A DNA stretch of 64,000 bases from Selaginella tamariscina (lineage: Eukaryota > Streptophyta > Lycopodiopsida > Selaginellales > Selaginellaceae): assembly GCA_003024785.1 (NCBI GenBank), contig PUQB01000233.1:248001-312000 (forward strand), written 5' to 3'. The notes beneath the pieces were generated by a model. It was not told the origin of the DNA. It made no database searches and was given only the letters and a program-made list of their open reading frames with translations. The position numbers and the translations under genes are program-made. This document shows positions 8,807 through 60,880 of this stretch, in pieces; position 1 is the first letter of the stretch, and every line of letters starts with the position of its first letter.

Positions 8807-8811
8807 AAGTT

Positions 8812-13541: not shown

Positions 13542-14798
13542 TTATGTCTGGCACAACATTACCTCTTCTGACTCATCTTCCGGATTTTCAAGCATTTCTG
13601 GTTCAGCAACTTCCTCTTCTACCATCGCCTTGAAATGTCCCGATTGTTGTGAAGGTGCTTGACACTCTTTAGCAAAATGACCAGGCTTGTTACAATTATA
13701 ACATTTCACAACCCCGCCTGCGGACTGCGGGGGAGCATACTTTGGAGCCAATCCTTTGGCCTGCTGAGCTGGTGGTAATGCCAATGGTTTCTGAAATCCG
13801 GTGGGTCTTGATGTGTCTGAAAACTTGAAACTGCCGACAAAGGGACTTACACTTCGAATTGATGGCGATTGATCTAGTCGCCTATCAAACCTTTTAAACC
13901 CAGACTTTGGAGGAAACCTCCTTTGATTTAGGTTTTGCTTCCTCCCCTTTGTACAAGTCTTCTAACGACATGCCATAAACAACCTTTTAAGCTGCCTCTT
14001 GACATTCTCGATAGCTTGTAGGCTTGTACCTTAAGATTTCTCTTCGTGTCTTCTCATTCAAGCTAGCCATGAAGCAACTTCGAGCTTCATCATCGCTCAT
14101 ATTTGGCATCAATCGCCGTACATTTTCGAATCGATAAACGTGGTTCATTGGACTTCCTCAAACTTCTTGTTGACAAAGTGCTAGGTCAGCACGTAATCAC
14201 AAACCAAAATCATCTGGCATATACTGCTTTTTGATCTCCTTTTTCATGTGTTTCCAGTTGTTTCGGTATCCACGTTCACCTTCAACAATTCGCCACCAAG
14301 TCTTAGCTTTTTCTTTAAGAAATTGCTTGGCACATGCAACCTTTTCTGTCTTTCTCACGGAAGCAGCCTCGAAATAGCTTTCCATATCATACAACCAGTC
14401 ATCCAAAACCTTGTAATCTTTTGAACCCATGAAATTCGAAGGCTTTACCGGTTTGAATTTACTGGGACCTCCACCACTTACTTCCATCAAAGAATCTGAT
14501 TCAGAGGAACCTGACTCTGAGTCATGCTTCTTCTTCTTTTTTTCCGTGTGTCTTGTTGCGGAACATCTAGCACTGTAGTATTCGTCAAAATCCAAACGGC
14601 AACATTATCAATTCGGTCGTTCAACCCCAAAACATCCCCTCGAAGTTCGTTTAGGGCATCCATCATTATTTCTCGCCAACCAGGTCGTTGTTTAACTCTA
14701 GGGGGTCGACCTGGATCAGCCTCATCCATCTCCTCATTTTGAGCCTCTGCGACAGCCCTCTTTGCCTCAGGCTCTGGTTGCTTTCTTTTGCTCATCAT
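13542..14798 (-). pseudogene. Element 1 gag
   Basis: The frame opens MMSKRKQPEPEAKRAVAEA at 14,798. The capsid-like part runs from about 14,590 to 13,960 and includes FMGSKDYKVLDDWLYDMESY. A CCHC knuckle CYNCNKPGHFAKEC is at about 13,660-13,705. A frame change falls in an A7 run near 14,540, inside a lysine stretch, and a stop interrupts capsid near 14,197. Gag would coat the element RNA, and the knuckle binds nucleic acid. Confidence 0.85.
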
Positions 14799-15109
14799 AT
14801 TGAACCCTAGTTTCAACACTCGAAGAATATGCTTGGAATATTCCCAATGTGAATTTGGAAACACCCTGCACAGGTTGTACACCCACACACATCAGCTTAA
14901 ACCAGCATAAGACTTTCGGACATACCTAGAATCTCACGCCGACTCACTGAGCAAGTGTTCTTCGAAGTTTGACAACTCACAGGATCAAACTCTCTGTGCA
15001 GAATACAGACATGTCAACCGAAAGCAATAGAGTATACCAAGAATTTAGAGTCATCTAAACATTGAAACACCCTACGACTTAAGGCAATCCTACTAATTGC
15101 AGAGAACTT

Positions 15110-15121
15110 CCTCCGATACCA
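15110..15121 (-). other. Element 1 primer-binding site, tRNA-iMet type
   Basis: Three bases inside the 5' LTR (right-hand LTR), the minus strand reads TGGTATCGGAGG. It resembles the usual plant initiator-Met site TGGTATCAGAGC. Confidence 0.8.
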
Positions 15122-15123
15122 AT

Positions 15124-16103
15124 TGTCAGAGTTTTTACCTGGTGCCACAAAGGCGACTTGCCAGGTGCCAACCCTGGAATCCCCTCTCTGGAAACCCCAC
15201 GAAATCTAGTAAAATAACCCATATTAGGAACCCAAGCCTAGGAACTCAAACCCCAGCTGACTAAGTCCACGAACGAGACTCACCTTGTGAATCAGGATAC
15301 ACTGACTACCCGAGCTTCAGGTGTCGTTCCTAGCTTGGCGTGGTTGAGGCGGCCGGAGCAAGGCCTCAACCACTAGTTTTGCAGAACGTGAACTCGGGCA
15401 ATGCCTTTGAGCTTTGCAGACAGGTTTTCGGACCAAGGAATTTAATTCCTTGGAAGTGACGTGCCCCTATCTCAAAGGCAAGATCCTGCCAACGATAAGG
15501 ATAATCTAACCCTAGGGTGGGTTGTACCCCTGTCGTGTGAAAGTTTGGGCGACACAATAGAGGGTTGCACCTTGACGACACAAGCTTAGCTTGCACCGGT
15601 AGGAGGTTAACGAGTTCTCTTTTGAACCCAGGAAGCCTCATTACATATACTCTACCTTATTTATGTGACGGACCCCCCCCCCCCCCCCGTTTACCTAAGT
15701 GAGTAAGTGGGCTGGTACGGAAATGCCAACCCTTAGAGAAAATAGTTGTCCTAACCTAACCCTAAACCTAACCCCTATGGGGGGGTTTAGGGCGTGGGGT
15801 TAGAGCAACCCTAGGGTTAGGTCAACCCTAGGAGTGTCCCTAACCCTTATTTTGACAAGCTATACTTTGCGAAGAACCCTAACTTGAAACATCAAACCAG
15901 GGGAGAGTTTCTAGAAGGTAAGTTCTAGCTTCGCCTAGAGTTTCTTACAAATACCTAATGACACCCGGCCGGACCATCACTAGATACCCAAGTGCACTAA
16001 ACGGGCCTATTTACTACTATATATAGGGTTCGTCACACAACTCGGTAAATAACAATAGTCAAACCCCAAAGTAAAGGGTCGAGTCATAGTAAAAACTATG
16101 ACA
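15124..16103 (-). repeat. Element 1 LTR (5' LTR in element sense)
   Basis: A 980-base partner of 8,812-9,772. Part of the extra length is a short internal duplication near 15,800-15,830 (the AACCCTAGG word twice) and a C run of about 18 near 15,670. Confidence 0.95.
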
Positions 16104-18250: not shown

Positions 18251-18417
18251 TCACCCTCCTTGCCAAAGCCTCCAAATCTCTAAGTATTGGGAAATATTGA
18301 AAGCATTAATTGTTGCTAAAGCCTCCTTATGTGCAATACAATGTATAACCACTAGATCAAAAATGACATGTTTAAGCTGTGTAACTAAACTTGATCTAAT
18401 ACCTTGTATTGCAATTG
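18251..18417 (-). pseudogene. hAT-like transposase relic, downstream half
   Basis: The minus strand reads IRSSLVTQLKHVIFDLVVIH followed by CIAHKEALATINAF. This resembles the core of hAT-derived transposases (ZNF862/ZBED type), in which a 'short-loop, HC-x-AH-x-EAL' segment follows the DG strand. It continues directly from the relic at 27,450-27,665. Element 2 lies between the two halves and its insertion split one reading frame. Further degraded sequence extends leftward to about 17,650. Confidence 0.6.
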
Positions 18418-18967
18418 TGTTAACATACAAAACTTTCCTGTGTGCAAAAACACTGTTCAACAGCACAGGAAAAGCTTTGCAAGTTAAAGTGTAGGATTTC
18501 GTCCAATAGAGAGCTCTATATATACACTTATCTCGTCTCTAAGGTCAAGGATAGGATTTGCTTTGGATTGCCATGTATAAGCTCACAATACACCATAAAT
18601 ATGCACTTGCATTACTATATGAATACAAAGAGATAGCAAGTGTGGAAGACTTACTTTCTCCCTAAGATACTCTTTCTCTCATGCATTGCTCTCCATAGCC
18701 TTCATAGCCTTCATAGTCCTCTCTCCCCTTCTTGCCCTTGCTTGCCCTTCCTTGCCCTAACCGAATCCTGTCCTCCTCCAACCGTCATAACTGTCTGCTT
18801 CTTGCAACCCGGATCCTTCCTACCATGTAGGATTTTTTCCTACTGCTGTAGGATTTTCCTTATACATAGGATATTTCCTACTACTACTTTCCTACAAGTT
18901 ATTCCTCCACCGTAGGAAAGTTCCTATGTATGCAGTTCTTACATGCTATATTTTTTGGCCTCTAACA
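18418..18967 (-). repeat. Element 2 LTR (3' LTR in element sense)
   Basis: A direct repeat of 26,906-27,449. A TATATATA box lies near 18,517-18,526. The repeated words TGTAGGA and TTCCTAC near 18,800-18,920 could fold back on themselves. Confidence 0.95.
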
Positions 18968-18981
18968 CTATTCCCCACCTT
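18968..18981 (-). other. Element 2 polypurine tract
   Basis: The minus strand AAGGTGGGGAATAG abuts the 3' LTR. Confidence 0.7.
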
Positions 18982-19079
18982 GAATCCTTGCAATGTCCTC
19001 ATTGCACCTGTCCTGCACCCTCATTCTCCTGCGGCTCCTCAGATACTATGTCTCGTATTCCTCCTTGTACCTCACAAAC

Positions 19080-21250
19080 TCTGCCTTTACCTTCTCCATT
19101 TCCTGTGCCATGGATGCCACCTGCAGTCGGAGACCCTGGTTCTCCACTGCAGTCGTGAAGTTCCTCTCCCAGCACCGTCAGTAATGCTCCTCCCTGTCGG
19201 AGTTCTTCCTGTCTTGACTATCTTCTGCGCCATCGGCATAGGTTCTGAAACACTCACAGGCTTGCTCTCAAGAACTGTAGGACTAGGAGTCCTTGCCTTC
19301 ACCGGTCGTGCTCCTATCCTGCTAACTGTAGCCTGCATGGTGTTGATCTTCGGCATTATCACTGCCTCCACCGCTTCTGCAATCAACCTCGAATTCTGCT
19401 CTGTCCTTCACTGTGTACCCATATTCACAAACTGGTTGTACAATGCTGAAGCCAACTGTGGTACATCCTGCGATGCTGAACTCACCTTTGCCGATTTGTC
19501 CAGTATCTCCTGCTGCATACGAGACAAAACCTGCGCCAGCTGTACCTCAACCTCCATAGGCACTTCCTCCTGTCTGAAGGATTTCCGCGCTTACCACCAT
19601 GTGAACGTCCCTGGTCCATAAACTCTTGCCATTTCTTCAGCCGCCGCTTCGTAGCATGAGTCATTCCCCCACCTACGTGATGCATAGGATACCCTCCTCG
19701 TGCAAACGTACCTCTTCCTCTTGGAGAATGCCCTGCCGCTCCACGGTTGAACCATGGCTGCCGTGTCATTGGAACACGTCCCATACCTTCACTTGGTGAT
19801 TGAGCTTGCCCGTTGGTAACTGCAACAAAACTGCAGTTGCCTCCTCAACTGTTCCTGGAATATCCCCGGGAATCTCCTTTCCCTTATTCCCTAACGCTCC
19901 GGTGACAACTCCACCGATTTCCCTGTCTCCATTGTTGGTAGCTCCTCCTTCGTCACTCTCCCGCAACTCAGGCGACTTCTCTTCCTTATTGTGTTCTCCA
20001 GACGTCCTATCCTGCGACTGTTCTTTCGGCTTTCCTCTGCTACCTTCGTCTGAGTCGTGGTACTTGTTCATGTGGCTTCTCTAGCTCCATTTGTACCACT
20101 TCCTCCAACGTCTTCTTCTCCGGATGCTGTCCCACCTTCTGTGGCTCTCTGGTTTTCAGCGGCTTCACCCTCAAAACCTGTTCCGAGTGCTCTTCCTCCT
20201 CCTCTTCTCCTGTTCCTGTCGAATCCTCATCATCCAAATGGATGCTCTCCCGCGGGCTTCGTCTTTCCCTTCCGCACGGACTTCCGCATCGGCATCACCC
20301 GTGATATCTTTTGCTTCTTCCCCTGGTGTCTTCATCACCTTACTGGTACTCTCCTGACGCTTCCCACTAGTCCTTCCTGTACCTTCTTTCCTACAGCCTG
20401 TTCTGAGGTGTGAGCACCTTCTGCAACTTACTAGCATACTCCTGCTCCTCCTTCCTCTCCACACTCCATCACATGATTCACAAGTGACTGTATCCACGCC
20501 AATGCATCATCGGAGACTCCTTCTGCTGTATCTCCTTCTCCTGAGCAGTAAAAACATACTCACCCAGTTTCCTGAGGAGATAACGTGCACTCCTGCACAC
20601 TTCCCCGTCTTAAGTGCGTCATACAGCGACATAACTGTCTTTGAGGCTGTAGTGGAAGAAAGTCTGAACTCAAAAGAGTTCACCAGAAAATTACCACAAG
20701 CTCCACTTCTTCCTCCAGATCCGCCACACGCAAGCCAAGCTTGCTATTGTATTGCCTCCCCTCTTTCAGATAGATATCTAATTCTTCTTATCTACCTCCA
20801 ACTCTCCTTCTCCTAATGGCAGCCGAAATACCTCCGCGATTGCCTTCTCATTAATCAACATCCTTCTCCCTTCGGCATATGCAACAAAATTATCCCAACC
20901 ATCTTTTCCGCCATCATGATGAAATGATAGCACTGTAGCGCATCAGGATTTACCTGCGCTAGAAGGTGAGCATACTTCTCAAGACCCAATCCCTGAAGAG
21001 CGTTCTCCAGCTCTGGATTGATCTCCCATCCCGTCAACATGACTGTAAAATGGCCACATGCCAGATCTCAGCCGCCTTATGCAGAGATCGGCAATTTTTC
21101 ACCACAAGAGTATTCTTTCCTCCTGCCATATCCGCGAAGAAAGAAGCTACAAACCCTAGATCTAGGTTTGGCGCTGATTTCCAAGTGTATTGGAATATTC
21201 GTATAGAATATATCTCAACGTCTATAAATGATACTTCATACCTCCTCAAT
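19080..21250 (-). pseudogene. Element 2 accessory 3' ORF(s), unknown function
   Basis: Downstream of integrase and in the same sense is a coding-like region broken into frames. It starts near 21,249. Segments include SAPNLDLGFVASFFADMAGG, KNCRSLHKAAEIWHVAIL, INPELENALQGLGLEKYAHL and MLINEKAIAEVFRLPLGEGE. It then passes into a Glu/Lys/Ser-rich stretch (about 20,500-19,770), an RGG-like patch SPRGRGTFARGGYP near 19,720, and a coiled, Gln-rich end near 19,480. The position corresponds to the env-like or extra ORF of Athila/Tat elements. I see no signal peptide or membrane segment that would support an envelope. The RGG patch suggests nucleic-acid binding, which is only inference. Confidence 0.6.
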
Positions 21251-21299
21251 TATTTATGTTTACCCTTTCCTGCATTCCGTCTCCTGTTAGGGTTTCAAC

Positions 21300-24200
21300 A
21301 TTTACCACACCTTCCTCACTTATCTCCTTGACTTTAATGGACCTAACCATTTCATTTTTAATTTATCCTGTGGTTTATCAACACTTCCTCTATACCACAA
21401 GACCAAATCTCCTTCTCTTATATCATGCTTCTTTCTTTTCCTATTATACCAGGCTCTCCTTCTTTTCTGAATTGCCTGTACAGTCCATAAAGCATGTAAT
21501 CTTATCTCATCCAGTTTTTCTAATTCCTGTAACCTACGTTGTAAGGATTCTTGCTCACCTAAATTATGCTTTACAGCAATCCTTAAAGATGGCACAATAT
21601 ATTCAACAGGAGTTATTGCCTCAAGTCCATATGCTAACTTAAAAGGCGTCATTCCTGTTACAACCTTATAGGCTGTCCTGTAAGCCCACAAGACTTCAGG
21701 AAGTCTTTCATCCCAGTCTTTTCCATTTTCCTGAATCACTTTCCTTAAAGGACTTTATTTGTAGATTCAGCTTGACCATTCCCTTGAGGATAATAAGGTG
21801 TAGATTTCTTATGTTTTATTCTTCCATAAGTGTTTGAATTGTTTCATTAATAAAGTGTTTTCCTCTATCACTTATGATTTCCTTAGGAATTCCATACCGC
21901 TATAATCATATATTATATATAGCACGGGCTGTATTATAAGCATCAGCTTTCCTCATAGGTTCTGCTTCTACCCACTTAGTCATATAATCCGTAAGTACCA
22001 GAATATATTGATTCCTTTTTGTACTCAGGATTTATAGGTCCTATAAAATCCATTCCCCACCTTTGAAAAGGTTCTATGGTAGGATAGGATTTAAGGATAT
22101 ACCTGTTTCTTAGGTGGTATATGTGCTCTTTGGCACTTATCACATTTCCTACAGAAATCTCCTACATCCTTCCATAATGTAGGCCACCATAACCCAGCCT
22201 GTAATATTTTCCTTGCAGTTATTTCCTCTGCAAAATGCCCTCCTGCTAGACCCGCATGGGCCTCTTTCAGGATATCCATAACCTCAAAAGGTTCCACCCA
22301 ACGTCTTAACACTCCATCCTGACCCGTCTTATATAACTTTCCTCCCACCAAAGAATAACGTCGTGTCCTCACGACAAATAACTTTTTCTGATCATTAGTC
22401 TCATAGGATGGTGGAACTAGTCCAGTCGACAAATAAACTTTTATGTCATCCATCAAGTGTGCATCAGGAAAGTCATCCATGTACTGGATTGGAACTTCTC
22501 CTTGTTTAATGCGGCTTAAATGGTCAGCCTGTTCATGCTGTCTACCAGGTTTATGTATGATTTGAAAATCATACTCCTGTAACAGGAGAAACCATCTAGC
22601 TAAACGTCCTGTTAGGACTGGCTTGTTTAAAAGATGTAACAAAGCCTTATGATCTACAAAGATTTTGACTTTATTAGCTAATAAATAGTGTCTAATTTAT
22701 GAATTGCATATACCATTCCTAAAGCTTCTTTTTCTGTGGTAGTATAGTTTACCTCTGCCGGTGTTAACCTGCGACTTGCATAGTAGATAGGACGGTCCTT
22801 TCCATCTTCCTGCGTCTGCGTAAGGATAGCTCCTATTGCATGTCTGAGGCATCAACCTGCACATGAAATTCCCTGTCCCATTTAGGATTCACTAATATAG
22901 GTGCTGTTACTAAAGATTTCCTTAATGTATCAAAAGCTTCCTGACACGCAGGAGTCCAATCATAGGATTTTCCTGCCTTTAAAAGGTCAGTTAAAGGTCT
23001 GGCTATTTGGGCATAATCCTTAATAAACCTCCTATGATAGCCAATCTTTCCTAAAAACCGCCTTAATTCTTTTAGATCCTGCGGTGATTGTAAGGTAAGT
23101 ATAACTTTAACCTTATCCTGATCCACCAGGATTCCTTCCTTACACACTACATGTCCTAAGAGAACTCCTGATTTTACAAAAAAATTACATTTCTCAGGAT
23201 TTAAAGCAACTGATTTTGCTTACATTTCTGAAAACACCTTTCTAAACAATAAAGATGATTCTCTTTATCACTATATACACTAAAATCATCCATAAAAACT
23301 TTCATAAAATCCAATAAATATTCCCTAAAGGTATCAGTTATGATCCTTTGGAAAGTAAAAGGTGCATTACATAAGCCAAATGGCATAACTTTATATGCAT
23401 ATGCACCCCATGGACTTATAAAAGCTGTTTTATGTTGGTCCTCCGGAGCTACTAGAATCTGATTATATCCTGAGAATCCATCCATAAAGGAATACATCTC
23501 ATGTCCGGCCACACTATCCAACATTTCTTCTGTAAATGGGATAGGAAAAACATCCTTCTTTGTGGCATCATTTAACTTCTTATAGTTTACACATACTCTC
23601 AACTTTCCATTCTTTTTAGGAACAATCACAAGTGGTGATAACCATTGTGCACCCTGTATAGGATAAATAAAACCTACACTTAACAGCTTATCTATCTCCT
23701 CCTTCACAAGCTGTGCATAATTAGGATTCATCCTATATGCTCTCTGTTTCACAGGCTCACTTCCTGGTAATAATTGTATAGTGTGTGTACACAATTCAGG
23801 AGGTATGCCTTTAAGATCTTTATAGGACCAGGCAAAAACATCCTGATATTTTTGAAGCAAATTCAATCCTTTTTCCCGGAATTCTTTATCTAATTCCTGA
23901 GCAATGAATAGGTTTTTAGGTTCATTTTCTGTACCTATATTCACTTGCTGCAAAGGATCTGTAGTATACACATATGTATACTCTGCAGGTGTTCCTGTAA
24001 ATCAATCTCATATGGGATTGCCTTATAGAACTTTTCCTGCAATCCGGGCCTATCTTCTTCCTTCTGCTGAACAGTTTTCTTTCCTTTCAGCACTACGTTT
24101 AAGTCTATATCCGTCAGGACTTTTAAGTCAGGATATGCTTTCAGGATTTCTACTTCTTCCTGATCGTCTAAGCCATTAAACCAGTCATATCCTTCTAAAA

Positions 24201-24762
24201 TAAGGGTCTGTTTTCCTTTTTAACATACCTTTTTGTATGATTGTATATCACCGGTTTTCCTTCTCCTTCTCCCAGCATCATTTTCCTGTTCCCCAATCCT
24301 GTATAACTTTAGCAGTTTTCAGCCAAGGCCTACCTAATAACATAGTATATACAGTATCTTTTCCTTCCATTTGGAGGACAATAAGGGACACTTATATTTA
24401 AGACCCTTTATAGATATAGTCACTCCTCTCACTATACCTGTAGGCTTGACACTTCTCTGGTCTGCCATTTTTAAATTAAAAGGAGCAGGCTCAATGGGTC
24501 CTAAACCCATTTTCTTACAAGCATGTTCCTCAATAAAATTAACTCCTGAGCCTCCATCTATAAGGACTTCTTTTATCTTGTTTTTACCAATATATACAGT
24601 AATGCTGGGCACATACCCATCATAATCACCTTCTTTTTCATAATGTTTTTCTACTCGGTGAATTTCATTTCCTGTATATGCAGGTAAGGATTTTGGAACA
24701 ATGTTCAACATTTCCAAGATTTGATTTTTAATATATGGGGCAATATGTATTAATTGTCCCAA
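21300..24762 (-). pseudogene. Element 2 pol: protease-RT-RNase H-integrase
   Basis: The protease has EVLIDGGSGVNFIEEHACKK (about 24,550). RT (23,971-23,201) has WLSPLVIVPKKNGKLRVCVN, MYSFMDGFSGYNQI and VFMDDFSVYSD. RNase H follows, with ELRRFLGKIGYHRRFIKDYA. Integrase follows, with an HHCC finger CRKCDKCQRAHIPPKKQ at about 22,110-22,160. The core includes VLWAYRTAYKVVTGMTPFKL (about 21,690), and the C-terminal segment has GDLVLWYRGSVDK. Breaks occur near 23,217, 22,839 and about 22,680, and each is explained by one missing base in a doublet. All catalytic-looking motifs are otherwise kept. I count it as broken as written, but possibly intact in the real genome. Confidence 0.92.
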
Positions 24763-25009
24763 CGTATTGTAATTTCTTGGCTCAATGCACTTTGAGCCAT
24801 TGATTCTGCCACGTCATCCTGAATCCGTTTCACAGGAATGCTCTGTTTTCTAGGGTTACTCTGTTTTACAGGAATATTCTTTTTCTCTTGAATATTCTTC
24901 CCTAAAATAGAATCAGTTATTTTTAGATCTTTAGGTATATCCGTCGGTTGTGTATCATCATCCGAGATATACTCAGGGAGATCTCGTTCTTGGAGATGAG
25001 TGTTCATCT

Positions 25010-26777
25010 CTCCCATTGTTTGCGTACTATCCCGCAATGATGGATAGAATTTCCTTCTTCTGCTGGAAGGTATTCCTGTTTCTGACATATATTTCTTTTT
25101 GTACAGATTACTGCTCTCACGGCAGGATGGTTTTCTAGCTCATTCTCGTCCACATCAATGAACCGAGCTCCAAGCTCTCTCTTAGGAGCATTGTTTGAGG
25201 TGGAAGGCTGATTCTTAGGACAATTTGGAGAAATATGTCCTTTCTCTCCACATGTATAACAAGTAAGATTAATAGAATTCCTTCCTTGTACTTGTCTTTG
25301 TCTATAGTTATTTTGATCTCCATAACTTTCTTTTCTTGGATATCTTTCTGGTCCTCTAGGACGTCTCCTTCCTTCCCATATTAGGCTTATATGGTGGAGC
25401 ATATCTAGTTTGATTCCCCATACAGCCTATCATCTCCTCCTGTATAAGGAACATTCCTTCTGTTATCAAAAGGATTCCTATTTCTTCCTTCTTCCCAACT
25501 CCCAGGCTGTTCCTCATAATAGAGCTTCCTATTCCGAGATGGGAATGTGGTAACAGGTGGTTGTCTCACAGGAAACGGCCTGTTATACCAGCCTTTTTCT
25601 TCCTTCTTTCTCCTTTCTTTTTCCACACGTGCCACATTTTGATTAATAAAATACTTACAGTCTTTTGCCGAATGTCCTTCTTTATCACATATTTGACATT
25701 TTGGCAACTGTAGTCTACACTCATCCTTAGTATGTCCAGGATTTTTACACTTGGCACACCATACTTTGCATCTAATTCCTTATACACAGGATTACCTTTC
25801 AAGGACTTAACTAGCTGTAATAACATTCTCTCATCAGCCTTATAATCCCGAACTTTGATAGGTTCATCCTCATCATCTGAACTATCCTCCTTTCTCCTTG
25901 AGGATTTTATCTTTCCTTCTGCTATGTTTTCTATTTGTCTCCTCTTCTTCTCATAATCTTTAAGATGCTTTACAAGATCTTTCCTGTCTACTTCCTCAAT
26001 TGTCATTGCATAATGCCTATATGGCTTCTGCAATCCTTGCTTATACCATTGAAGCAAAGCTTCTTCCTTAACATATAGTGAGCATTTCTTTTCATGCTTT
26101 TTAAAACGGTGTGTATATTCCTCTAGAGTTTCAGTTTTTCCTTGTAGGATATTTCTGAGCTTCTCTAAGTGCTCTTCAGGCAACTCTTCCTTTTTAAAGT
26201 ATTCTTTAAAAGCTTCTGTAACTTTCTCATAATCTTCTCTCACATCTTTCTCCAACTCATAATACCAATCAGATGCATTTCCTTTTAATGTGTGAGGAAA
26301 TATAAGCAACTTATCTGCATTGCTTACTTTATACAACTTTACAACTTCCTCAAACTGCAATAAATGTCTTTTAGGATTTTCCTTCTTTCCTGCGGAAAAT
26401 ATTGGGAACATCAATGTGCCTCCCAACATTCCGGGGAAAAGTGTCATATTAGACATACTCGGTGGGTTTTCTCTACCACCTTCCTCCTCACCAAGAGGGG
26501 AATTTCCAGGAGATACTCCTCCTGGTCTAATAGGAAATCCTGTTCTCCGAGGAGTTCCTTCCAACTCCTCTTCTCCTGCAGTTTGATAGTCACCGTATTG
26601 TATATCCTCCACACCTTTAGCAGCACTTTCTCCTATCTGATCAATGAGTTTTATAAGAGCTTCTTGCCTATTAGCAAGCTCTATTTGCTCAGCTCGGGCA
26701 GCCTCTCTCTCGGCCTGCCTATTATCTCTCTCTCTTGCTAGAGACGAGTTAGGATTATGTTGCCTCCAAGGCTCCAT
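25010..26777 (-). pseudogene. Element 2 gag with three CCHC knuckles
   Basis: The ATG at 26,777 opens a frame of about 340 codons. It has a glutamine/arginine-rich N-terminus, then the capsid domain (LLQFEEVVKLYKVSNADKLL to LLQWYKQGLQKPYRHY), then an acidic linker. Three zinc knuckles follow: CAKCKNPGHTKDEC and CQICDKEGHSAKDC (about 25,680-25,755) and CYTCGEKGHISPNC (about 25,210-25,250). The knuckles are one frame away from capsid, and the break is at the T run 25,765-25,767 (AAA in gag sense). Confidence 0.9.
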
Positions 26778-26883
26778 CCATCATCATATATATACACACT
26801 TCTTTTTCACTTAAGCTCTACTTCTCTCAGAGCTATATCACTTCTCACTTAGGAATTCAACAAATTCCTCCACAACAATGGCG

Positions 26884-26903
26884 AAATCCCTCCGTGGTCG
26901 CCA
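26884..26903 (-). other. Element 2 primer-binding site
   Basis: Beside the 5' LTR the minus strand reads TGGCGACCACGGAGG. The TGGCG start and GGGATTT that follows resemble the tRNA-Asp-type site of Tat/Athila elements, but the middle does not match. The identity of the tRNA is uncertain. Confidence 0.5.
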
Positions 26904-26905
26904 TG

Positions 26906-27449
26906 TGTTAACATACAAAACTTTCCTGTGTGCAGAAAACACTGTTCACAGCGCAGGAAAAGCTTTGCAAGTTAAAGTGTAGGGATTTCGTCCAATAGAG
27001 AGCTCTATATATACTTATCTCGTCTCTAAGGTCAAGGATAGGATTTTGCTTTGGCCATTGCCATGTATAAGCATTCACAATACACCATAAATATGCACTT
27101 GCATTACTATATGAATACAAAGAGATAGCAAGTGTGGAGACTTACTTCTCTCCCAAGATACTCTCTCTCTCATGCATTGCTCTCCATAGCCTTCATAGCC
27201 TTCATAGTCTCTCTCCTTCTTGCCCTTGCTTGCCTTGCCCTAACCGAATCCTGTCCTCCTCCAACCGTCATAACTGTCTGCTTCCTGCAACCGTAGGATC
27301 CTTCCTACCCTGTAGGATTTTTCCTACTGCTGTAGGATTTTTCCTGTACACAGGATATTTCCTACTACTACTTTCCTACAAGTTATTCCTCCACCGTAGG
27401 AAAGTCCTATGTATGCAGTTCCTACATGCTATATTTTTGGCCTCTAACA
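26906..27449 (-). repeat. Element 2 LTR (5' LTR in element sense)
   Basis: A partner of 18,418-18,967. The copies differ mainly by single-base indels in short runs and a few substitutions, so the insertion is fairly recent. Confidence 0.95.
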
Positions 27450-27665
27450 CATTGCATCTTTCTGTAGTTATACCCACAAGTTTATGCAATGGAAGGCATA
27501 GTTCCTCAACACATGACAATATTATTGCCATCCTTAGTGGAAAATAGCTTCAAGTATTTAAATTTGTTTTTAGCTCTCCTCTTGAAAGAAGCTTCACATA
27601 AAGGATTAAATGATGCTTCAACCTGTTATTAATGGATTCATCCATTAAAGCCCAAAGAATGGATT
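27450..27665 (-). pseudogene. hAT-like transposase relic, upstream half
   Basis: From 27,665 downward the minus strand reads LMDESINNRLKHHLILYVKL, the 'LLDESTD...H' region of hAT transposases. After a frame break it reads PLHKLVGITTERCN right up to Element 2. Across the insertion the protein sense continues at 18,417. Frameshifts and stops make this a relic. Confidence 0.6.
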
Positions 27666-39619: not shown

Positions 39620-41109
39620 CTATGAAAGCTCCTTTCGCAGCTTCCGAGAGAACGGCTGGCAAGCATCAATGCTCAAGTCCACGGCTGCCGCCAGAGCCAT
39701 GAAAACGGCTGCGTCCTCTGCACACGTTATATGCCGCATTGCCAGCTGAACTAGCGGCTTACCGCACGAGCTCCTCTCTCCTCTAGTCGTGCAGCTCATC
39801 ACGAACCCACCCGAGACGGCAGTCCGAGGTTGAAGTTGCAGTCCCCGCTGCTTCTCGGGCTCTGAACCGGTGTCCGAGATGGTGAAACCGCCGGCCGGAA
39901 CTTGACAGTGTCCACTGAAAACTCCCACCAGTCCGCGAGTTGATGACAGTCTCGGAGACAAGAACACCGCTTCCGAAGTTCGTAGCACTTCCGCCTTCTG
40001 CCACTAGCTGAAACCTGAGGCCTAATCCTCCTTGCTTTCCTCTCTCCTCCATGCCTCTAGTCTTCCCCACGGTTCCCAGCTATCTCCATCTGGTCTCAGA
40101 ATCAACCACGCACCTGGGTTTGAGCGGCTTACTCGATCAGTTCCGGCTGACGGGACAAACGGAGTCACCATAGACGCTGCTGCTACAGGCGAACCGGATA
40201 GGTCGTGTATCATGATGAGCCACCCTTTGCGTTCCTTCCTCTCCTTGTCGTGTCCTCCCAATGGTCCAGACCACTTCCGAGGCGTTTCACAGACACCCAG
40301 TCTGTCATTGAGAAAAAAGAAACGACGTTCTTAAATGCGAGAAGTAAACAACTATCCATAGCAAGAAAAAAGGTGTGACTGAAACAATCATGCATGTGAA
40401 GAACATAGACCCAGTACCACTAGCAAAGCCAGTATGCAAAAACAACGGCCTAGATGAAAATTGCACAGCACCCATTAACTAACCTTGAGCGACTGAGCCT
40501 GTCCCGGCTAAATTTACAGCTGAAGAGCGGTTGAGTGATGTTGCCTTGAATCTGAACAATCTGGGGACTTGAGACTGTCTCCCCGTCGAACTGGAAAATG
40601 TATCTCGGATCAGCCTCCACTTTGATTGTGAGATGCAATTCTGCCCGGGCTTTCCGTCCGTAGAGTTTCCGCGACCGATTCCTGTCCAGCCATTGTGTAC
40701 CTGAACGGGTTTCCCGTCTATCCACTGAGAATCGACCGGAACGGAGAATGTCCCAATGAGCTTTCCCTCTTTCACCCCGCAGCGAGTGCCCTGCCTGCCG
40801 GTATAGACCAGAACCTCCAGACACGGAAAAGACGAGGTTTTGAAGCAGGAAGCCGGCGAGAGCAGCTTCTCAAGAGCCGATTCGTCGAGGTAAAAGTTAG
40901 CTGCAATGCTGCCCCGATCAGGAGGAGCTGGAGAAGACGGAGAGATGAGCGGAACCGGCGCTATTTGGACCGGATAACCTGGAAGCCGGATTTCGCAGAA
41001 GAACGGAGATGCCGAGGCGTGAATACCTGTTCTTGCTGGCTTCGGGCGCTAGCGGCACCCTCACGGCCAAAGCGGCCACCGAGATTTTCACGAACGCTCG
41101 AGGATCCAT
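39620..41109 (-). CDS. DUF1005 family protein, 2 exons, several frame breaks
   Basis: A plant-specific family of unknown biochemical function. Exon 1 (41,109-40,484) starts MDPRAFVKISVAALAVRVPL and ends at the donor AAG|GTTAG. Exon 2 (about 40,303-39,620) follows the acceptor AATGACAG. Family signatures in order are SPFFCEIRLPGYPVQIAPVP, VLVYTGRQGTRCGV, VQVHNGWTGIG, ELHLTIKVEADPRYIFQFDG, PQIVQIQGNITQPLFSCKFS, KERKGWLIMIHDLSGSPVAA, DRVSRSNPGAWLILRPDGDS and WGRLEAWRRE. The C-terminus is FVMSCTT, ITCAEDAAVFMALAAAVDLS and KLRKELS before TAG. Total length (~430 residues) is normal for the family. Successive motifs fall in different frames, with breaks near 41,038 and 40,647 (both explained by one missing C) and near 40,035 and 39,950. 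All conserved blocks are kept, so I favour sequence error over a pseudogene. Confidence 0.88.
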
Positions 41110-51263: not shown

Positions 51264-52529
51264 ATGGCACGAGAGAAGCCACATACACGTGCTATTGTGG
51301 TGGAGGGACAACTTGGTGAGCGTCCAGTGCAAGTCCTCATGGATAGCAGGAGTAATGATAGCTTTGTGTCAACAAAGTTAGTGGAGGAGTGCAGCTTGCC
51401 CACAAAGATTATGCCTCAACACGAGATTGAGGGCTCAACTATCACATAGAGCTACAGTGCTTATGTGAAGGAGTTATAGCTGGAGGTTGGCAAAACCTAG
51501 CTGGTGGAGATGGGCAAAGACTGTGCCTCAATACGATATTGAGGGCTCATCTATCACACAGAGCTAAAGTGCTTATGTGGAGGAGTTATAATTGGAGGTT
51601 GGCAAACCTAGCTGGTGGAGACTTTCTTTCTTGTGGAGCTAGAGTATGTGGATCCTAAGATCCAATGGAGTACTAAGCACATAAAGCTTGAGTACAGTGG
51701 AGTGAAGGCACTTGGTTTGGAACAAAACTTGAGTTTCCAAACAAGTTTTTCCATTGTCACCTCTAATGGAGTTGTTATGCAAGTTATCCTTGAGGAGTTT
51801 GCTGATGTCTTCCCTCTCGAGTTATCTCATGGCTTATCACCTCCAAGAGGTGTGGAGCATGAGATTGTGTTGGAACAGGGTATGAAAGCCATTTATTGTA
51901 AGCCATTTCATGCTGAGGAGCAAGAGGTTAAGAGACAAGTGATGGAGCTAGTGGAATATGGCTTCATACAACCGAGCAAGTCTCCATTTGGTGGTGCACT
52001 AATATTACTCGTCAGGAACAAAGATGGCATCATGAGGATGTGCATAGACTATCGAGCACTTAACAAGCAAACAATGAAGGACATGATGCCCATGCCACGT
52101 GTGGATACTATCATGGATCATCTCGGTGGAGCCAAAGTGTTCACCAAGACAGATCTGTAGAGTGGGCATCATCAAATTGATGTGAAGGAGGTAGATATTT
52201 ACAAAAATGCTTTCAACACCAGCTTTGGGCATTTTGAGTTCATTGTTATGCCATTTGACTTAACAAATTCCCCAACCACATTCACTTAGTTGATGACTGA
52301 GGTGTTTAGTGGCTACTTGTACAACTTTGTGGAGATCTTCCTCGACGATATTCTTATTTATAATAAGAATATGAAGGAGCATGTGGAGCATTTATGGAGA
52401 GTTCTTCAGTTGTTGCTGGAGAACAAGCTCTATGCAAAGAAGAACAAATATGCATTTGCTCACTGCGAAGTGGAGTATTTGGGTCACATTGTGACGTCAA
52501 GTGAAGTGAAGACTAATTCACAGAAGGTG
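51264..52529 (+). pseudogene. Element 3 protease and RT remnant
   Basis: The protease-like part reads VLMDSRSNDSFVSTKLVEEC, in which the active-site Gly is changed. A partial duplication of this area follows (the 51,441-51,475 text recurs at about 51,547-51,583). RT runs from about 51,800 with SPFGGALILLVRNKDGIMRM, KVFTKTDL followed by TAG, then [18 protein letters not shown] and the active site VEIFLDDILIYNKN. Several stops interrupt it. Confidence 0.8.
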
Positions 52530-52534
52530 GCAGT

Positions 52535-53154
52535 TGTCACGACCCGATACAAAATACAGGATTCCGGATACAGGACATGGGTTGCAGGACTTTCCTACAG
52601 GATTCCGGATACAGGATATGGGTTGCAGGATTTTCCTACAGGATATTCCTACCAGGATTCCGGACACAGGATTCGGTTGCAGGATATTCCTACAAGATAT
52701 GCCACAGGATATGCCTAGGGATAAGGGACATGTGGACTCATCTTAGCCTCTGCATGCATGCAATCACTTTTGCATGCATGCAACCACTTTTGCATGCATG
52801 CCTAGATTAGCTCTTGGAGTTGTGAGCATAAAAGCTCCGACCTAATTGTTGTACAATCAGTTACTATCAACACCAGTCTTACTATGATCAATTTCGTCTT
52901 GTCTTGTTCTCGTCTTGTTTCTTGTCCTGTTCCTGTCTCGCTCCTGTTTCCTGTCCTGCCCTGGATCCTATCCTGCTCCGGGATCCTGTCCTGTTCCTGT
53001 CTCGCTCCCGGATCCTATCCTGATCCTGTCTTGCTCTTAGATCCGTCCTGTTCCTATTTCCAGTTCCTGTCCTGCTCTCGGTCCTGTTCCTGAGTCAGGC
53101 CTTCCTGTCCTTGGAATCCTGTTCCCTTCCTGGTTCCTGGATCATGGCATGACA
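52535..53154 (+). repeat. Element 4 5' LTR
   Basis: The U3 part (to about 52,858) is dense in CAGGA words, and the R/U5 part (from about 52,870) is dense in TCCTG words, its complement. A TATA-like CATAAAAG lies at 52,827-52,834, which places the start of transcription close to 52,859. Confidence 0.95.
52859..52870 (+). promoter_or_regulatory. Predicted transcript 5' end, complementary to the primer site
   Basis: AGTTACTATCAA begins about 30 bases after the TATA-like box and is the exact reverse complement of 53,157-53,168. Confidence 0.6.
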
Positions 53155-53156
53155 GT

Positions 53157-53168
53157 TTGATAGTAACT
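53157..53168 (+). other. Element 4 self-complementary primer-binding site
   Basis: TTGATAGTAACT lies two bases after the 5' LTR, where a tRNA-primed element has TGG.... It does not fit a tRNA 3' end, but pairs over 12 bases with the predicted 5' end of the element's own RNA. A GT beyond a one-base bulge would extend the pairing. Confidence 0.6.
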
Positions 53169-53246
53169 CCTTCATAGTTCTCCGTTTTCCAGCTACCTTT
53201 TTCTTGATTCTTTTCCTTCATTTTCCTCCTTTTTCTTTCCTAGATC

Positions 53247-54219
53247 ATGGCTGATTTTGAGCGTTTCAACGAGCACCAAATGTACTTCATGAGCTGGCCA
53301 CTTTGCGCCAAGTGGTCACCGACCTGCAAGGTTCCACCACTGCGGCACATGCAGCTGCTGATGCATCCTCCAAGGCTGCTGCGCAGGCTCTCTCCCAGGC
53401 ATCGGTGGTTCCCTCTTCATCAAACTTTTCTTCGGAGCCGAAGGTTAGCATGCCAGAGAAGTTCAGTGGTAATCGTGCCGATTTCCAAGGTTTCCTGAAT
53501 CAGATCCGGCTCTTGATCCGTATGCAACCACGGCGCTACTCGACTGATGCTCAAAAGGTGGGTCTTTTGGCATCCTTACTAAGTGGATCTCCACGGGCTT
53601 GGGTTGCCCCCTTGCTGGAGCGTGACGATCCATTGATGGAAGACTTTGAAGGTTTCGTGGCTGCCTTTGAAGCCTGTTTTGGAGATCCTGATAAGTACCG
53701 TTCTGCATGCACGAAGTTACGGAAGCTCACTCAAGGATCCCGACCAGCTTCCGTCTATGCATCCGAATTTCAGCAACTTTGCACGAACATTCCATGGGAC
53801 GAGACTGCATTGATCGAACACTTCCGTTTTGGGTTGAGGGACGACGTGAAGGACCTTCTCCTTACGTTACCGGATGCCCAAACATTAGCGGAGATCATGC
53901 AACAAGCTGTTCGTTGCGACAACCGTTTGTTCGAGCGTCGTCAGGAAAGATCCCGTCAACAGTTCCTGCAAACCAATCCTGCAGCTGTGGTACATGTTCC
54001 TGCACCACCTTCTGGAGTAGTTCCTATGGAGGTTGAGAAATCCAAGCGTGGCTCTCTTTCCGCTGCGAGAAGCAACGTCGTCGCAGTGAGAACCTGTGCT
54101 TGTATTGTGGTGGAGCAGGACACAAGGTGGCAGATTGTCCTATTAAAGCCAGGAACTTCAAGACGCGTGAAGTTGAAGCTGAAGTTCAGTCGGAAAACTC
54201 CAATGTCCACTTCGTCTAG
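53247..54219 (+). CDS. Element 4 gag
   Basis: The ATG at 53,247 opens MADFERFNEH. After a break at the A run 53,278-53,280 the capsid part continues: TLRQVVTDLQGSTTAAHAAA, KVSMPEKFSGNRADFQGFLN, ASLLSGSPRAWVAPLLERDD and FRFGLRDDVKDLLLTLPDAQ. After a second break at GG 54,050-54,051 a CCHC knuckle CLYCGGAGHKVADC follows, and the frame stops at 54,217-54,219. Capsid plus a single knuckle is typical of this family. Confidence 0.88.
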
Positions 54220-57200
54220 GAGCCGCGAAGTTGGACGTAGGTGCAGGCTCCATTGGTGCTGCTCATACCATCCCATCACTTAAGTTTCCTGTACACATTC
54301 ATCTTAATAATCGAGAGCTCATGGAGTTTGCCTTGTTAGACACTGGTGCAAATGCATGCTTCATGGATGACACGTTTGCAACTCAACATGGCATTTCGGT
54401 GGTGAAGTTGAAGCGTGCAGTTCCTGTAGAGGTGGCCGATGGGCGTCTAATTGCTTCTGGTGCAGTTACCCATGCTACCGAACCTCTCTCCTGCAGGTAT
54501 GGCACATTCAACTGTTCAATTTCCTTCAACTTGATCAAGACTCGGTCGACTCCCATCATTTTGGGCATGCCATGGTTCGTTGTTGCAAATCCGCAGATCG
54601 ACTGGAGGTCTAGGACGCTCACGTTTTCCTCTCCAACTGCTAGGATCAATCCTGTACCTTCCTGCGTGCAGGATACATCCTTAGTATCTGAGGCAGTACA
54701 AGCTACAGGATTGACCGTGCCTGTTCCTGTACCAGTGTTGAAGACTCCTCCTCGACAGGATTCACCTCATGTCAGTTCCTCAGCACATCCGCAGGCTCTC
54801 TCCACTCCTGTAAGTTTGCGGTGTCCTGTACAGGGTTCTTCCAATCCTGTATCAGTGTCGAAGGTTCCTCCTCAACAGGATCCACCTCCTGTTGATTCGT
54901 CAGCACATTCGCAGGCTTCTTCCACTCTTGCGCAACCACGGACTCCTGTACAGGATTCTTCCAATCCTGTACACTCATCAACACCACACAGGTTTTTTCC
55001 AATCCTGCTTCTTTCTGTTACCCTGCTTCTGTTCCATCCCCCAAGATCCTTCCTCTTTTTCAGTCACAGCTCCCTCCTTCTCCTCTCCGAGTTCTTACCA
55101 CTACCATGCATGAACTCGCCACTGATCCTGCTCCCTTCCACCTTTTTGCCTTTCAAGTAACTCCTACGTCCTCTTCTACCTTTCCTGTATCCGACTCCCC
55201 TGTTTTTTCTCCTTCTCCTTCTCCTTCTCCTCCTTCTTCCCTACCATCCAAGTACCACGACTTTAAGGACGTTTTTGACAAGCACAAGGCTGCAGTTCTT
55301 CCTGTTCACAGGTCCTACGACTGTCCTATTGATCTTGCGGAAGGAAAGACTCCACCATTCGGACCGATTTATGCATTGTCACCCACAGAGTTGGAGGTTC
55401 TTCGTCAGTACATCGAGGACAACTTGGCATCCGGCTTCATTCGTCACTCAAAGTCCCCTGCAGGAGCTCCTATCTTCTTTGTCAAGAAGAAGGATGGGAG
55501 TTTACGTTTGGTTGTGGACTACAGGGGTTTGAATCAAGTCACCATTCGGAATCGGTACCCGTTGCCATTGATCCCGGAACTTCTCGATCGGCTGCGAGGA
55601 GCAAAGGTGTTCACGAAGATCGACTTACGAGGAGCCTACAACCTTGTACGGATTCGTCCCGGCGATGAGTGGAAGACTGCCTTTCGTACAAGGTATGGAC
55701 ATTTTGAGTACACGGTAATGCCTTTCGGCCTTACCAATGCCCCAGCTGTTCCAACACATGGTGAACGACATTTTCCGTGACTTCTTGGACCAGTTTGTGG
55801 TGATCTACCTCGACGACATCTTGATTTTCTCCAAGGACCAGGCGGCACATGACAAGCATGTACGACTAGTTTTAGAGCGGCTTCGCGAGCATGGCCTGTA
55901 CGCGAAGTTGGAGAAGTGTTTTTTCGATAGGGATTCGGTGGAGTTCTTGGGCTACATCGTCTCTCCTGCTGGCGTTTCCATGGACATGCACAAGGTGAAG
56001 ACCATCGTGGAGTGGGAGAGGCCCAAGTCGGTACGAGATGTACAATGTTTCCTTGGCTTTGCAAACTTCTACAGGCGGTTCATACAGGACTTCTCCAAGC
56101 GTGTACTTCCACTCACAGAACTCACCAAGCGCACAGGACTTTTCTCTTGGTCCGACAAGGCGGAACACGCGTTCACAACACTCAAGGACGTTTTCACGAC
56201 AGCTCCGATTTTAGCACATCCTGACCCTTCTCATCCTTTCTTCATTGAAGCAGATGCCTCGGATTTTGCAGTAGGATCCGTCTATCGCAAGTTGGAGAGG
56301 ACAAGTTGCTTCATCCTGTAGCTTTTCACTCTCGTAAGTTCCTGTCGGCGGAGATCAACTACGAGATTCATGACAAGGAACTCAAGGCCATTGTGGATTC
56401 GTTTGAGGAGTGGCGGCATTTCCTGGAAGGTGCTGCACATCCTGTACAAGTTCTTACGGATCACAAGAACCTGGAGTACTTTCAAACGGCTCGGGTCCTC
56501 AGTCGGCGACAGGCTAGGTGGGCAGAGTTCCTATCACGTTTTGACTTCGTCATCGTCTACAGGCCCGGCTTTCGGAATGGCAAGGCGGACGCATTGTCTA
56601 GGCGCTCTTACCTTGCACCAAGCCCGGGCGATCCTGCATTTGACGGTCAAAGGCAAGTGTTGTTGGGTCCTGATCGTTTCCGGCTTGCGGCACTGCAGGT
56701 TCATCAGGCTCCAGCAAATTCAACACTCCTACAGGACGTCCGTTCGCAGTTGGCTACAGACGACTTGGCAAAGAATGTGTTCTCACACATTCATCCTGAC
56801 GTTGCAAGTTCCTCTTCCTCCAGTTCCCGTCCAGACTACAACCTGTTCACCATACAGGATGGACTCCTGTACCGGGAAGGTCTCCTGTACGTTCCTGTTG
56901 GTATTTCCAGGACTCGTGTGGTACAGGATTGTCATGATACCCCGGCTACAGGACATTTTGGTGTGGCCAAGACAGTGGAGTTGGTGACTCGCAACTATTG
57001 GTGGCCTGGGTTGCGAGGTTTTGTGGAGAGGTTTGTACGGAGTTGTGACACTTGTAGCAGGTCGAAGATGCCTCATCATGCACCCTCTGGTCTTCTTCGT
57101 CCTCTTCCTGTTCCGTCTGCTCCTTGGAGATCCATTTCTATGGATTTCCTCACAGATCTTCCTCCTTCTCGTGGATTTGATGCAGTTCTTGTGGTGGTTG

Positions 57201-58212
57201 ACCGTTTCACCAAGCAGGCTCATTTCCTACCCTGCAACAAGACAGCTACAGGTCAGACAACTGCCGAGTTGGTGATCCGCGAGGTGTTCCGACATCATGG
57301 TCTTCCTGAGAGCATTGTTTCCGATCGAGGTCCACAATTCATGTCCAAGTTTTGGCGAGAGCTTCTTCGGAGTCTACAGGTCAAAGCGGATCTTTCTTCA
57401 GGATATCACCCACAAACCGATGGGCAGTCCGAACGCACAATTCAGACCTTAGAACAGTATCTTCGTTGCTTCATCAGTTACCAGCAGGACAACTGGTTGG
57501 ACCTCCTTCCAATGGCGGAGTTTGCCTACAACAACTCCATCCACGCATCTACAGGACAGACACCTTCTTTGCTCTTACAGGCCACCATCCACGTTTTGAC
57601 TTTGCTCCTCCCGCTTCTCCTTCTTCCGCTCCTGCAGTACAGGATCGTCTTCAGCATCTTCGGCAGGTACAGGATGATCTCCAGGTTCATCTTCAACAGG
57701 CACAGGAACGATACAAGCATCATGCTGATGCTCACCGTCAGCCGGCACCTGCATACAAGATTGGTGATCTCGTGTGGCTTCTTCGTCGACACATTCGCAC
57801 CAACAGGCCTTCTTCTAAGTTGGATTTTCAACGATTGGGCCCTTATAGGATCGTGGCGGAGGTAAATCCTGTAGCTTTCCGACTCGAGTTACCATCCACG
57901 GTGAAACTTCATCCTGTGTTTCACACCTCTTTGTTGGAGCCGTATCATCCTTCTTCTCTTCCCGGTCGTGTTTCTTCTCCTCCCCCTCCTGTGGTCATTG
58001 ACACGGAACCTGAGTACGAAGTCGCAGCCATCCTTGACTCTCGTCTTCATCGTCACCAACTCCAATACTTGGTGGATTGGAAAGGGTACCTGCCTACTGA
58101 TCGCACTTGGGAACCTGCATCCAACTTACTCCATGCTTCTTCCAAGGTTGCTGCCTTCCATCGGCATTATCCTGCTAAACCAGGTCCCAAGACTCGTGGA
58201 ACTCGTCTTTAG
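54220..58212 (+). CDS. Element 4 pol: protease-RT-RNase H-integrase-chromodomain
   Basis: The frame is -1 relative to the gag end. The protease has [14 protein letters not shown] (about 54,331-54,372). A Pro/Ser-rich spacer with many CCTGTACAGG-like words follows (54,640-55,230). RT has [40 protein letters not shown] and the intact active site [14 protein letters not shown] (about 55,800-55,840). RNase H has [14 protein letters not shown] and the tether [20 protein letters not shown]. Integrase has an HHCC finger (SCDTCSRSK), [39 protein letters not shown] and [20 protein letters not shown]. The GPY/F segment [20 protein letters not shown] comes next. The chromodomain ([31 protein letters not shown]) ends the protein at 58,210-58,212. 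Breaks near 55,748, 56,282 and 57,565 are each a single lost base. All visible catalytic residues are conserved. Confidence 0.93.
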
Positions 58213-58223
58213 GGAGGAGGTGC
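58212..58223 (+). other. Element 4 polypurine tract
   Basis: GGGAGGAGGTGC directly before the 3' LTR, overlapping the pol stop codon by one base. Confidence 0.75.
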
Positions 58224-58841
58224 TGTCACGACCCGATACAGAATACAGGATTCCGGATACAGGACATGGGTTGCAGGACTTTCCTACAGGATTCCGGATA
58301 CAGGATATGGGTTGCAGGATTTCCTACAGGATATTCCTACCAGGATTCCGGACACAGGATTCGGTTGCAGGATATTCCTACAGGATATGCCACAGGATAT
58401 GCCTAGAGGATAAGGGACATGTGGACTCATCTTAGCCTCTGCATGCATGCAATCACTTTTGCATGCATGCAACCACTTTTGCATCATGCCTAGATTAGCT
58501 CTTGGAGTTGTGAGCATAAAAGCTCCGACCTAATTGTTGTACAATCAGTTACTATCAACACCAGTCTTACTACGATCAATTTCGTCTTGTCTTGTTCTTG
58601 TCTTGTTTCCTGTCCTGTTCCTGTCTCGCTCCTGTTTCCTGTCCTGCCCTGGATCCTATCCTGCTCCGGGATCCTGTCCTGTTCCTGTCTCCTCCCGGAT
58701 CCTATCCTGATCCTGTCTTGCTCTTAGATCCGTCCTGTTCCTATTTCCAGTTCCTGTCCTGCTCTCGGTCCTGTTCCTGAGTCAGGCCTTCCTGTCCTTG
58801 GAATCCTGTTCCCTTCCTGGTTCCTGGATCGTGGCATGACA
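58224..58841 (+). repeat. Element 4 3' LTR
   Basis: A 618-base partner of 52,535-53,154. The self-pairing word AGTTACTATCAA is preserved at 58,547-58,558. Confidence 0.95.
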
Positions 58842-58846
58842 GCAGT

Positions 58847-60880
58847 GGTGGAGCAATGCCAGTTCCTAGCAATGTAAAGTTACAGAGTTTTGGGCATGGC
58901 TTGTTATTATCGGTATGTCAAAGATTATGCCAAGAAAGCTTCTCTATTAACTAGGTTGTTGAGGAAGAACGTTTCCCTTTGCATGGAGTGCTTTAGAGAA
59001 GAGCAGCTTCCAAGCTTTGAAATAAGCTTTGGTACATGCACCAGTTTTATCTATTGCAGATCCCTTTAAGCCTTATGAGGTATCATGTGATGCAAGTGGA
59101 AGTGGCCATTGGAGATGTACTTATGCAAGAGGGAAGGCTTATTGATTATGAGAGTTGTACTTTGAATCCTGCAAAGCAATGGTACTCAGCGTATGAGCAA
59201 GAACTACTGGCTATTGTTAATGCATTACGAGTTTGGAGGCACTATCTTTATGGTGCAAGTTTCAAGGTGTTTTAAAAATTACAAGCCTTTGGTGTATTTG
59301 TTCACATAGAAAGAGTTAAACTCTTAGCAAGCTCACATGATGTTTAAGTTCATGGAGTCCAGCAAATTTCCTATTGAGCATCGCGCGGAAAGGCTAACGT
59401 GGTGGCATATGCTTTGTCATGCGTTAGGAGAGCCATAATAGTTGGAGAATTCCAAACAAACTTATGTAATGCATTAACAAGGATGGTCAGTGAGTTTAGC
59501 TAGGTAATTCAGCATGCTCAAGCACAAGACGCCGAGGTGCATGAGCTCAGAGGACAGCTAGAGCCACCATTCTCATTTCATAATGAATTTTTGTACTACA
59601 ATGGCCGTGTGTATTTTCCTAATGTGGACCATTTATGAACATTGTAACTAAAAGAAAATGTTTTCTTAATAATTAGCAATTTTAATTATTTAATTAGCAT
59701 TTTTTAATATAAAAAATAATTTTTAGAATAATATATGTTTAAAGAAAATATTCTTTAAAATGTAGTTTAAAATATTAATAATTAATACATAAGTATTAAT
59801 TAAAGATTTTTTTATTTCTCAATTTTTATGTATCATTCCCATTTTAGTTACACGTTCATATTTAATCAATTAAGTACTATATTTCTACTATGATCGCCCG
59901 AAGATTGGTCATTTGGGGGGGAGGAAAACATGTGAGTTGATCAAGAGGAGGTTTTACTAGAGGAATATGAAAGCTGATATCATAGAGTACTATAGGACTT
60001 GTGACAAGTGACAGCAAGTAAAGGTGCCCTTTGTCACTCATTTACCAATGACATAGAGGCAGAATGAACAGGTGTGGATCATTGTGGACATGTTGACAAA
60101 GTTTGTTAAATTCGTTCCCTTGGAGAAGAATGTGAATGCATCTAAGCTGGCTACAATGTATTTACAACATATATTTCATATCCACGAATTTCCAGATGAT
60201 ATTGTAAGTGATTAGGACTCTAAGTTCACTTCTAGCTTTTGGAGAGGCTTTTATAAGTGCATGGAAGTGAAGCTTAAGCTGTGTAGTGTAGATCATCTCG
60301 AAACAGATGGGTAAACAAAGAGGGTGAACCAAGTTTTAGAAGATATGCTGAAGTGCACTATTAACTAGAAGGAAGGCCAATGGGATAAGTATATTTAAAT
60401 ACTCGAGTTTGCTTATAATAACAACAAGCACAATGGTATTGGAATGAGTCCGTACTATGCCATGTTTGGACAGCATCCCAAGACAGCTTTTGAGTTGGGG
60501 TTAACAAGTAAGAAGGCTCAAGGCAACATGGATGAAGAAGTTAAAGATCTGAGTGTTGAGCTTGAGAACATTCATAGTTTGTGCAAGAAGAACTTGTAAG
60601 CAACTCAGAGTCAAGTTATCAAGTTTGCTAATAAACACATGTGGGAGATTATGTATATCTCCAAGTGGGATTTGCCACACATGTAAGGTGAAACACTATT
60701 ATGGCCTTACGGAAGGGACGCAATGATAAGTTGTTTCCCAGGTACTTAGGTCCTTATGAGATTTTGGAGTGTATCAGTAAAGTGGCGTATCAACTACAAA
60801 TGCTAAAAGGAGTGAGGGTGCACCCAGTGTTTCATGTTAGCTAGTTAAAGAGAGTACTCACAAGGAACGAGACCCGTGTA
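58847..60880 (+). pseudogene. Element 3 RNase H and integrase remnant
   Basis: RNase H pieces are at about 58,900-59,275 (YYRYVKDYAKKASLLTRLLR and YSAYEQELLAIVNALRVWRH). Integrase pieces run from about 59,990 (CDK-x2-C finger remnant). They continue with HEFPDDIVSD and SKFTSSFWRGFYKCMEVKLK (about 60,185-60,280), then EFAYNNNKHNGIGMSPYYAM (about 60,408) and the late RVHPVFHVS segment near 60,820. Stops are frequent. An AT-rich interval without coding signal lies at 59,640-59,880. Confidence 0.8.

Follow-up and report, generated by a model that had tools for sequence, protein, structure and literature searches.

Described Self-Priming Elements and the Selaginella Locus

Tf1, a retrotransposon of fission yeast, primes its own reverse transcription with a self-primer word of about 11 bases, and RNase H cuts the RNA in the process. 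In plants, self-priming is predicted for most elements of the Tcn1 clade, which come from moss and club-moss (Neumann et al., 2019, PMC6317226), and for the TAR lineage of Ty1/copia, which belongs to a different superfamily (PMC6317226). Horizontal transfer into plants is a published hypothesis (PMC2864245, PMC6317226). For SM-Tcn1 of Selaginella moellendorffii, the published description (Novikova et al., 2010, PMC2864245) reports that a tRNA site and self-priming were both absent. A review, in wording that joins Chlamyvir and Tcn1, limits Tcn1 representatives to algae and non-plant species (PMC9033089), a statement that disagrees with PMC6317226 and PMC2864245. Here we describe a 6.3 kb Ty3/chromovirus at positions 52535-58841 of a 64,000-nucleotide stretch of Selaginella tamariscina DNA (assembly GCA_003024785.1, contig PUQB01000233.1, positions 248,001 to 312,000; hereafter the window), which very probably is a Tcn1-like element of the Tf1/sushi side that primes its own reverse transcription.

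This element has in common with the plant Tcn1 clade a spikemoss host, a probable place on the Tf1/sushi side, a classical chromodomain with its cage, and predicted self-priming. It is set apart from SM-Tcn1 by its clear self-priming pair, a difference drawn from the description of SM-Tcn1 and not from that element's sequence. From Tf1 and Tj1 it differs in having a plant host, in being known from sequence alone and, compared with the roughly 11 bases of Tf1, in having a word of 12. As in Tj1, whose RNA 5' end is described as complementary to the primer-binding site (PMC4600332), the putative 5' end of the window element's RNA matches its predicted primer site.

The initial annotation of the window implied more novelty than the literature allows, since self-priming of plant Tcn1 elements had already been predicted in print (PMC6317226). 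What is new here is covariation across five words, together with probable fern (Azolla) relatives. As sequence evidence, covariation of the words from one family to the next is stronger than the prior prediction for plant Tcn1 (PMC6317226), and the Azolla relatives, if true, would extend the group to ferns. We found no report of fern Tcn1 elements in a literature search that left most subscription papers and supplementary files outside its scope.

The Inverted Word Pair

The primer site for a tRNA begins with TGG. As the initial annotation had noticed, the window element has no such site just after its 5' long terminal repeat (LTR), and TGG, which was looked for without comparing tRNA sequences, is absent from the 22 bases that follow it. 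Two bases past the LTR end, after the spacer GT (53155-53156, plus strand), lies the predicted primer-binding site TTGATAGTAACT (53157-53168, plus strand). Its exact reverse complement is found in both LTRs, at 52859-52870 and 58547-58558. The first copy, AGTTACTATCAA on the plus strand, would be the RNA 5' end and the start of R, and it begins 31 bases past the A of ATAAAAG; the TATA-like CATAAAAG (52827-52834, plus strand) is the putative promoter. The coordinates of the pair, the word retained in the 3' LTR and its distance from the TATA-like box, given before as about 30 bases, thus all agree with what had been annotated.

The site and its two reverse complements are the only three exact matches in the window, where 0.07 were expected. 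When the 22 bases after the LTR were reverse-complemented and compared with the LTR, the longest match was 12, a length reached anywhere in the LTR by 1 of 3000 dinucleotide-preserving LTR shuffles. Among 459 internal 22-base pieces (step 11) compared with the LTR, one reached 12, which we take to be the primer site itself, one reached 11 and four reached 10. The true chance of the pair should be smaller than the shuffle figure, because the two words have fixed positions relative to the LTR end and the TATA-like box.

Covariation Among Relatives

An RNase H-integrase protein profile (A1) gave 59 Ty3-like loci in prokaryote assemblies, which we read as eukaryotic contamination. We scanned 14 of them for inverted words, chosen from the listed loci L001-L025 and L054 and required to have a gag match and preceding sequence. 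In the integrase tree described below, the window element falls in a 24-row clade with 11 members for which there is DNA, namely the window element and ten loci. Three of these (L004, L015, L017) have no readable stretch before gag and stand outside the word count; both sites are readable in the other eight (the window element, L001, L002, L003, L005, L006, L016 and L024).

Seven of the eight readable members have an exact match of 11-12 bases at the same place, with five distinct words among them. The match is 12 bases long in the window element, L001 and L024, and 11 in L002, L003, L006 and L016. When the seven were cross-tabulated over 11 bases, each word agreed with its partner at all 11 positions and with unrelated words at 4-6; L016 against L002, L003 and L006 gave 10 of 11, and the one differing base is compensated in L016's partner. 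The layout is constant in all seven, with the word's 3' end CAA identical, the first TATA-like site starting 31-33 bases upstream of the word, and the primer site two bases past TGACA. The initial annotation had proposed compensatory changes between the two words as a check on self-priming, and the relatives bear this out, with the exception of L005.

As controls, we used nine TGG-type sites, seven from loci and two from other window elements (8811-16103 and 18416-27453), and all nine reach just 5-6 bases. The control loci were picked by the word TGGTATCAGAGC, which we take to be the usual tRNA-Met primer site, with the LTR end unchecked; L033 looks identical to L034, and L043 to L044, at the site. 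Elsewhere in the scan, the matches of L009, L012 and L014 are mainly AT-rich, and L019 and L022 have no match. L007 and L013 have 9-base matches (with a predicted helix probability of 0.00 in L013); both fall outside the 24-row clade and were not counted as support. Scans of viral contigs yielded no confirmed relative.

Predicted Fold and Proposed Priming

The 12-base helix is present in both the minimum free energy and centroid folds of 52859-53200. The mean pairing probability of this helix, when 20 bases of tail are included, is 0.94 for the window element and 0.92-0.96 for the other six matching members; with a 150-base tail, five members remain at 0.94-0.95.

Priming may proceed as follows. 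The TATA-like box would place the RNA start at 52859, so that the RNA begins AGUUACUAUCAA, and these first 12 bases are predicted to fold onto the site two bases past the LTR, with which they pair exactly. By analogy with Tf1, a cut by RNase H after the word would free a 3' end, which reverse transcriptase could extend across the GT spacer and U5; integrase would afterwards remove the two spacer bases and so leave the CA end. The primer would itself be copied into the new primer site, re-matching the words at every cycle. Such copying would explain why the words are family-specific yet exact.

We consider the sequence evidence for self-priming strong. That part of the initial annotation is supported by the covariation across five words, with the RNA 5' end being the part that is deduced.

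Several observations weigh on the other side. The RNA 5' end is placed by TATA spacing. L005 is unmatched, its longest match being 7 bases; by eye, its R word appears changed and its primer site L016-like. One word is common to L002, L003 and L006, so the independent words number five at most, and the L016 word is a single change from that common word. The window element is the sole copy of its exact family in the comparison, and the host of the relatives is itself deduced. As for the fold, the 150-base tail lowers the helix probability to 0.76 in the window element and 0.40 in L003, and the total fold energy is just mildly below that of shuffles (z -1.81, with 4 of 100 equally stable).

Alternative Explanations

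It is possible, if on balance unlikely, that the window copy is no longer mobile and that its match records the self-priming of its parent, an explanation that is compatible with self-priming as proposed here. The coding domains are scattered across several reading frames (Pfam, on the sequence as read, unrepaired), and the copy may therefore be inactive. On the other hand, LTR divergence is small (98.4% identity) and both words are intact; a host gene in the window, DUF1005, is likewise frame-shifted, so some of the changes may be sequence errors.

The word helix could instead serve packaging, dimerisation or translation control, with something else priming reverse transcription. What is directly seen is base pairing, and the helix does close the RNA leader; we nevertheless regard this as very improbable, as in all seven matching members the site lies two bases past the LTR, the position required of a primer, and the other word sits at the expected transcription start. 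Weakest of all, with hardly any probability left to it, is priming by a tRNA or tRNA fragment without the usual TGG pairing, the inverted word being there by chance: most surveyed plant elements use tRNAs, half-tRNA priming is described in some copia lineages (PMC6317226) and TGG-type sites occur in two further elements of the window, but TGG is lacking here and a shared tRNA cannot yield five words, each paired with a partner of its own at a constant position.

An Additional Inverted Word in U3 of Some Relatives

In L002, L003, L006 and L016, U3 carries the family word a third time, in inverted orientation, just upstream of the word at the predicted RNA start; L024 has an imperfect copy there. 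In 2000 shuffles each, this gave p <= 0.0065 in the first four and 0.016 in L024. The copies of L002, L003 and L006 are non-independent, as they have one common word; that of L016 bears its family-specific change. We detected no third U3 copy in the window element, L001, L007 or L013. Such a copy might arise, for example, through fold-back of a complementary DNA end. If it were general, self-primed elements would be marked by the very mechanism that copies them, a generalization that we think improbable.

On visual inspection, L005 carries differing versions of the word region at its ends (160-340 and 5110-5180); the first word copy is altered, and the U3 and primer-site words are still alike.

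Phylogenetic Placement and Chromodomain

For a quick tree of the integrase part, 81 rows were gathered, 17 were left out, and L015, L017, L024 and two window pieces were added. The 24-row clade of the window element has a Shimodaira-Hasegawa-like approximate likelihood ratio (SH-aLRT) support of 99, and lies inside a 49-row set (SH-aLRT 99) with a vertebrate row, P0065 (Leptobrachium), and a fungal row, P0070 (Podosphaera). The Leptobrachium row, which we take to be sushi-like, shares this set with the window element but sits on a separate branch. Outside the set are the pairs L026/L032 and L028/L029, all four from the same assembly as most relatives, and the two pieces of other window elements, which are short and long-branched.

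The chromodomain, aligned with HP1 (1kna), has all three cage residues, Y24, W45 and Y48, at positions that we assigned ourselves. The aromatic cage defines the classical chromodomain (PMC3350952). Together, the integrase tree and the cage support a place on the fungal and vertebrate Tf1/sushi side, in keeping with published descriptions of the plant Tcn1 clade (PMC6317226, PMC2864245, PMC3350952). The window element is likely to belong to Tcn1, judging from these features and from a tree whose named rows on the Tf1/sushi side are one vertebrate and one fungal, and in which Tcn1, Maggy, Tf1, sushi elements and plant chromoviruses are not represented by name. The Tcn1-like label of the initial annotation is accordingly supported by the side on which the tree places the element and by the complete chromodomain cage, and is less firm as to clade.

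Hosts of the Element and Its Relatives

The window element's host is a non-seed plant of the moss or club-moss kind. The window contains a plant DUF1005 gene with frame changes (39620-41109, minus strand), which is 68% identical to its Selaginella moellendorffii counterpart, the other 119 listed matches having at most 53%. In a DUF1005 tree of 22 rows it pairs with the Selaginella moellendorffii protein with a support of 100/100. By this gene, the host is most likely a Selaginella or a near relative, and probably a species other than Selaginella moellendorffii; a host search with the NIF-phosphatase reading frame gave no match. The gene is either a pseudogene or affected by sequence errors.

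Of the ten clade loci, nine (L001-L006 and L015-L017) belong to a single assembly, which bears the title uncultured Trichormus, and the tenth, L024, to a cyanobacterial bin. Trichormus azollae is another name of 'Nostoc azollae', which lives in symbiosis with the fern Azolla (PMC5901025). The relatives in the Trichormus assembly are therefore probably fern (Azolla) DNA, a reading that goes from the name Trichormus to Trichormus azollae.

Element Structure and Neighboring Sequences

The window element shows the features of a Ty3/gypsy chromovirus: TG...CA LTRs, a target duplication, and the order gag, protease, reverse transcriptase, RNase H, integrase and chromodomain. The 5' LTR (52535-53154, 620 bp) and the 3' LTR (58224-58841, 618 bp) have the ends TGTCA...TGACA and are flanked by the target-site duplication GCAGT (52530-52534 and 58842-58846). 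All features between these flanks are on the plus strand. Gag (53567-53842) matches Retrotrans_gag PF03732 in Pfam, as well as Ty3_capsid and DUF4939. It is followed by a weak aspartyl protease (54297-54575), for which PF13975 is below its curated cut-off and PF08284 and PF13650 are above theirs. Pfam further identifies the reverse transcriptase RVT_1 (55481-55961) and RNase H, as RT_RNaseH_2 and RT_RNaseH (56148-56542), each in two reading frames. The integrase, with an H2C2 zinc finger and an rve core, lies at 56909-57412, a Tf2-1-like SH3 domain (PF24626, Pfam) at 57763-57948, and the chromodomain at 58015-58167. The purine-rich AGGGAGGAGGTGC before the 3' LTR (58211-58223) is the putative polypurine tract.

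The window element seems to be nested in an older Ty3 element. Upstream, the frame 52290-52718 is reverse transcriptase-like by eye, and downstream there is an integrase-like stretch at 59826-60452; Pfam gave no match in the neighboring frame 51612-52157. The two further LTR elements of the window, at 8811-16103 (LTR identity 91.7%) and 18416-27453 (93.5%), have their frames on the minus strand and TGG-type primer sites.

Finally, the internal region of the window element is enriched in TACAGG/CCTGTA (33 copies against 1.4 expected, with a maximum of 8 in 60 shuffles), an enrichment absent from the five relatives and two other window stretches tested. The coding pieces, among which the gag piece has no copy, hold 31 of these words against 8.6 under synonymous-codon shuffling, where the maximum of 300 was 16.

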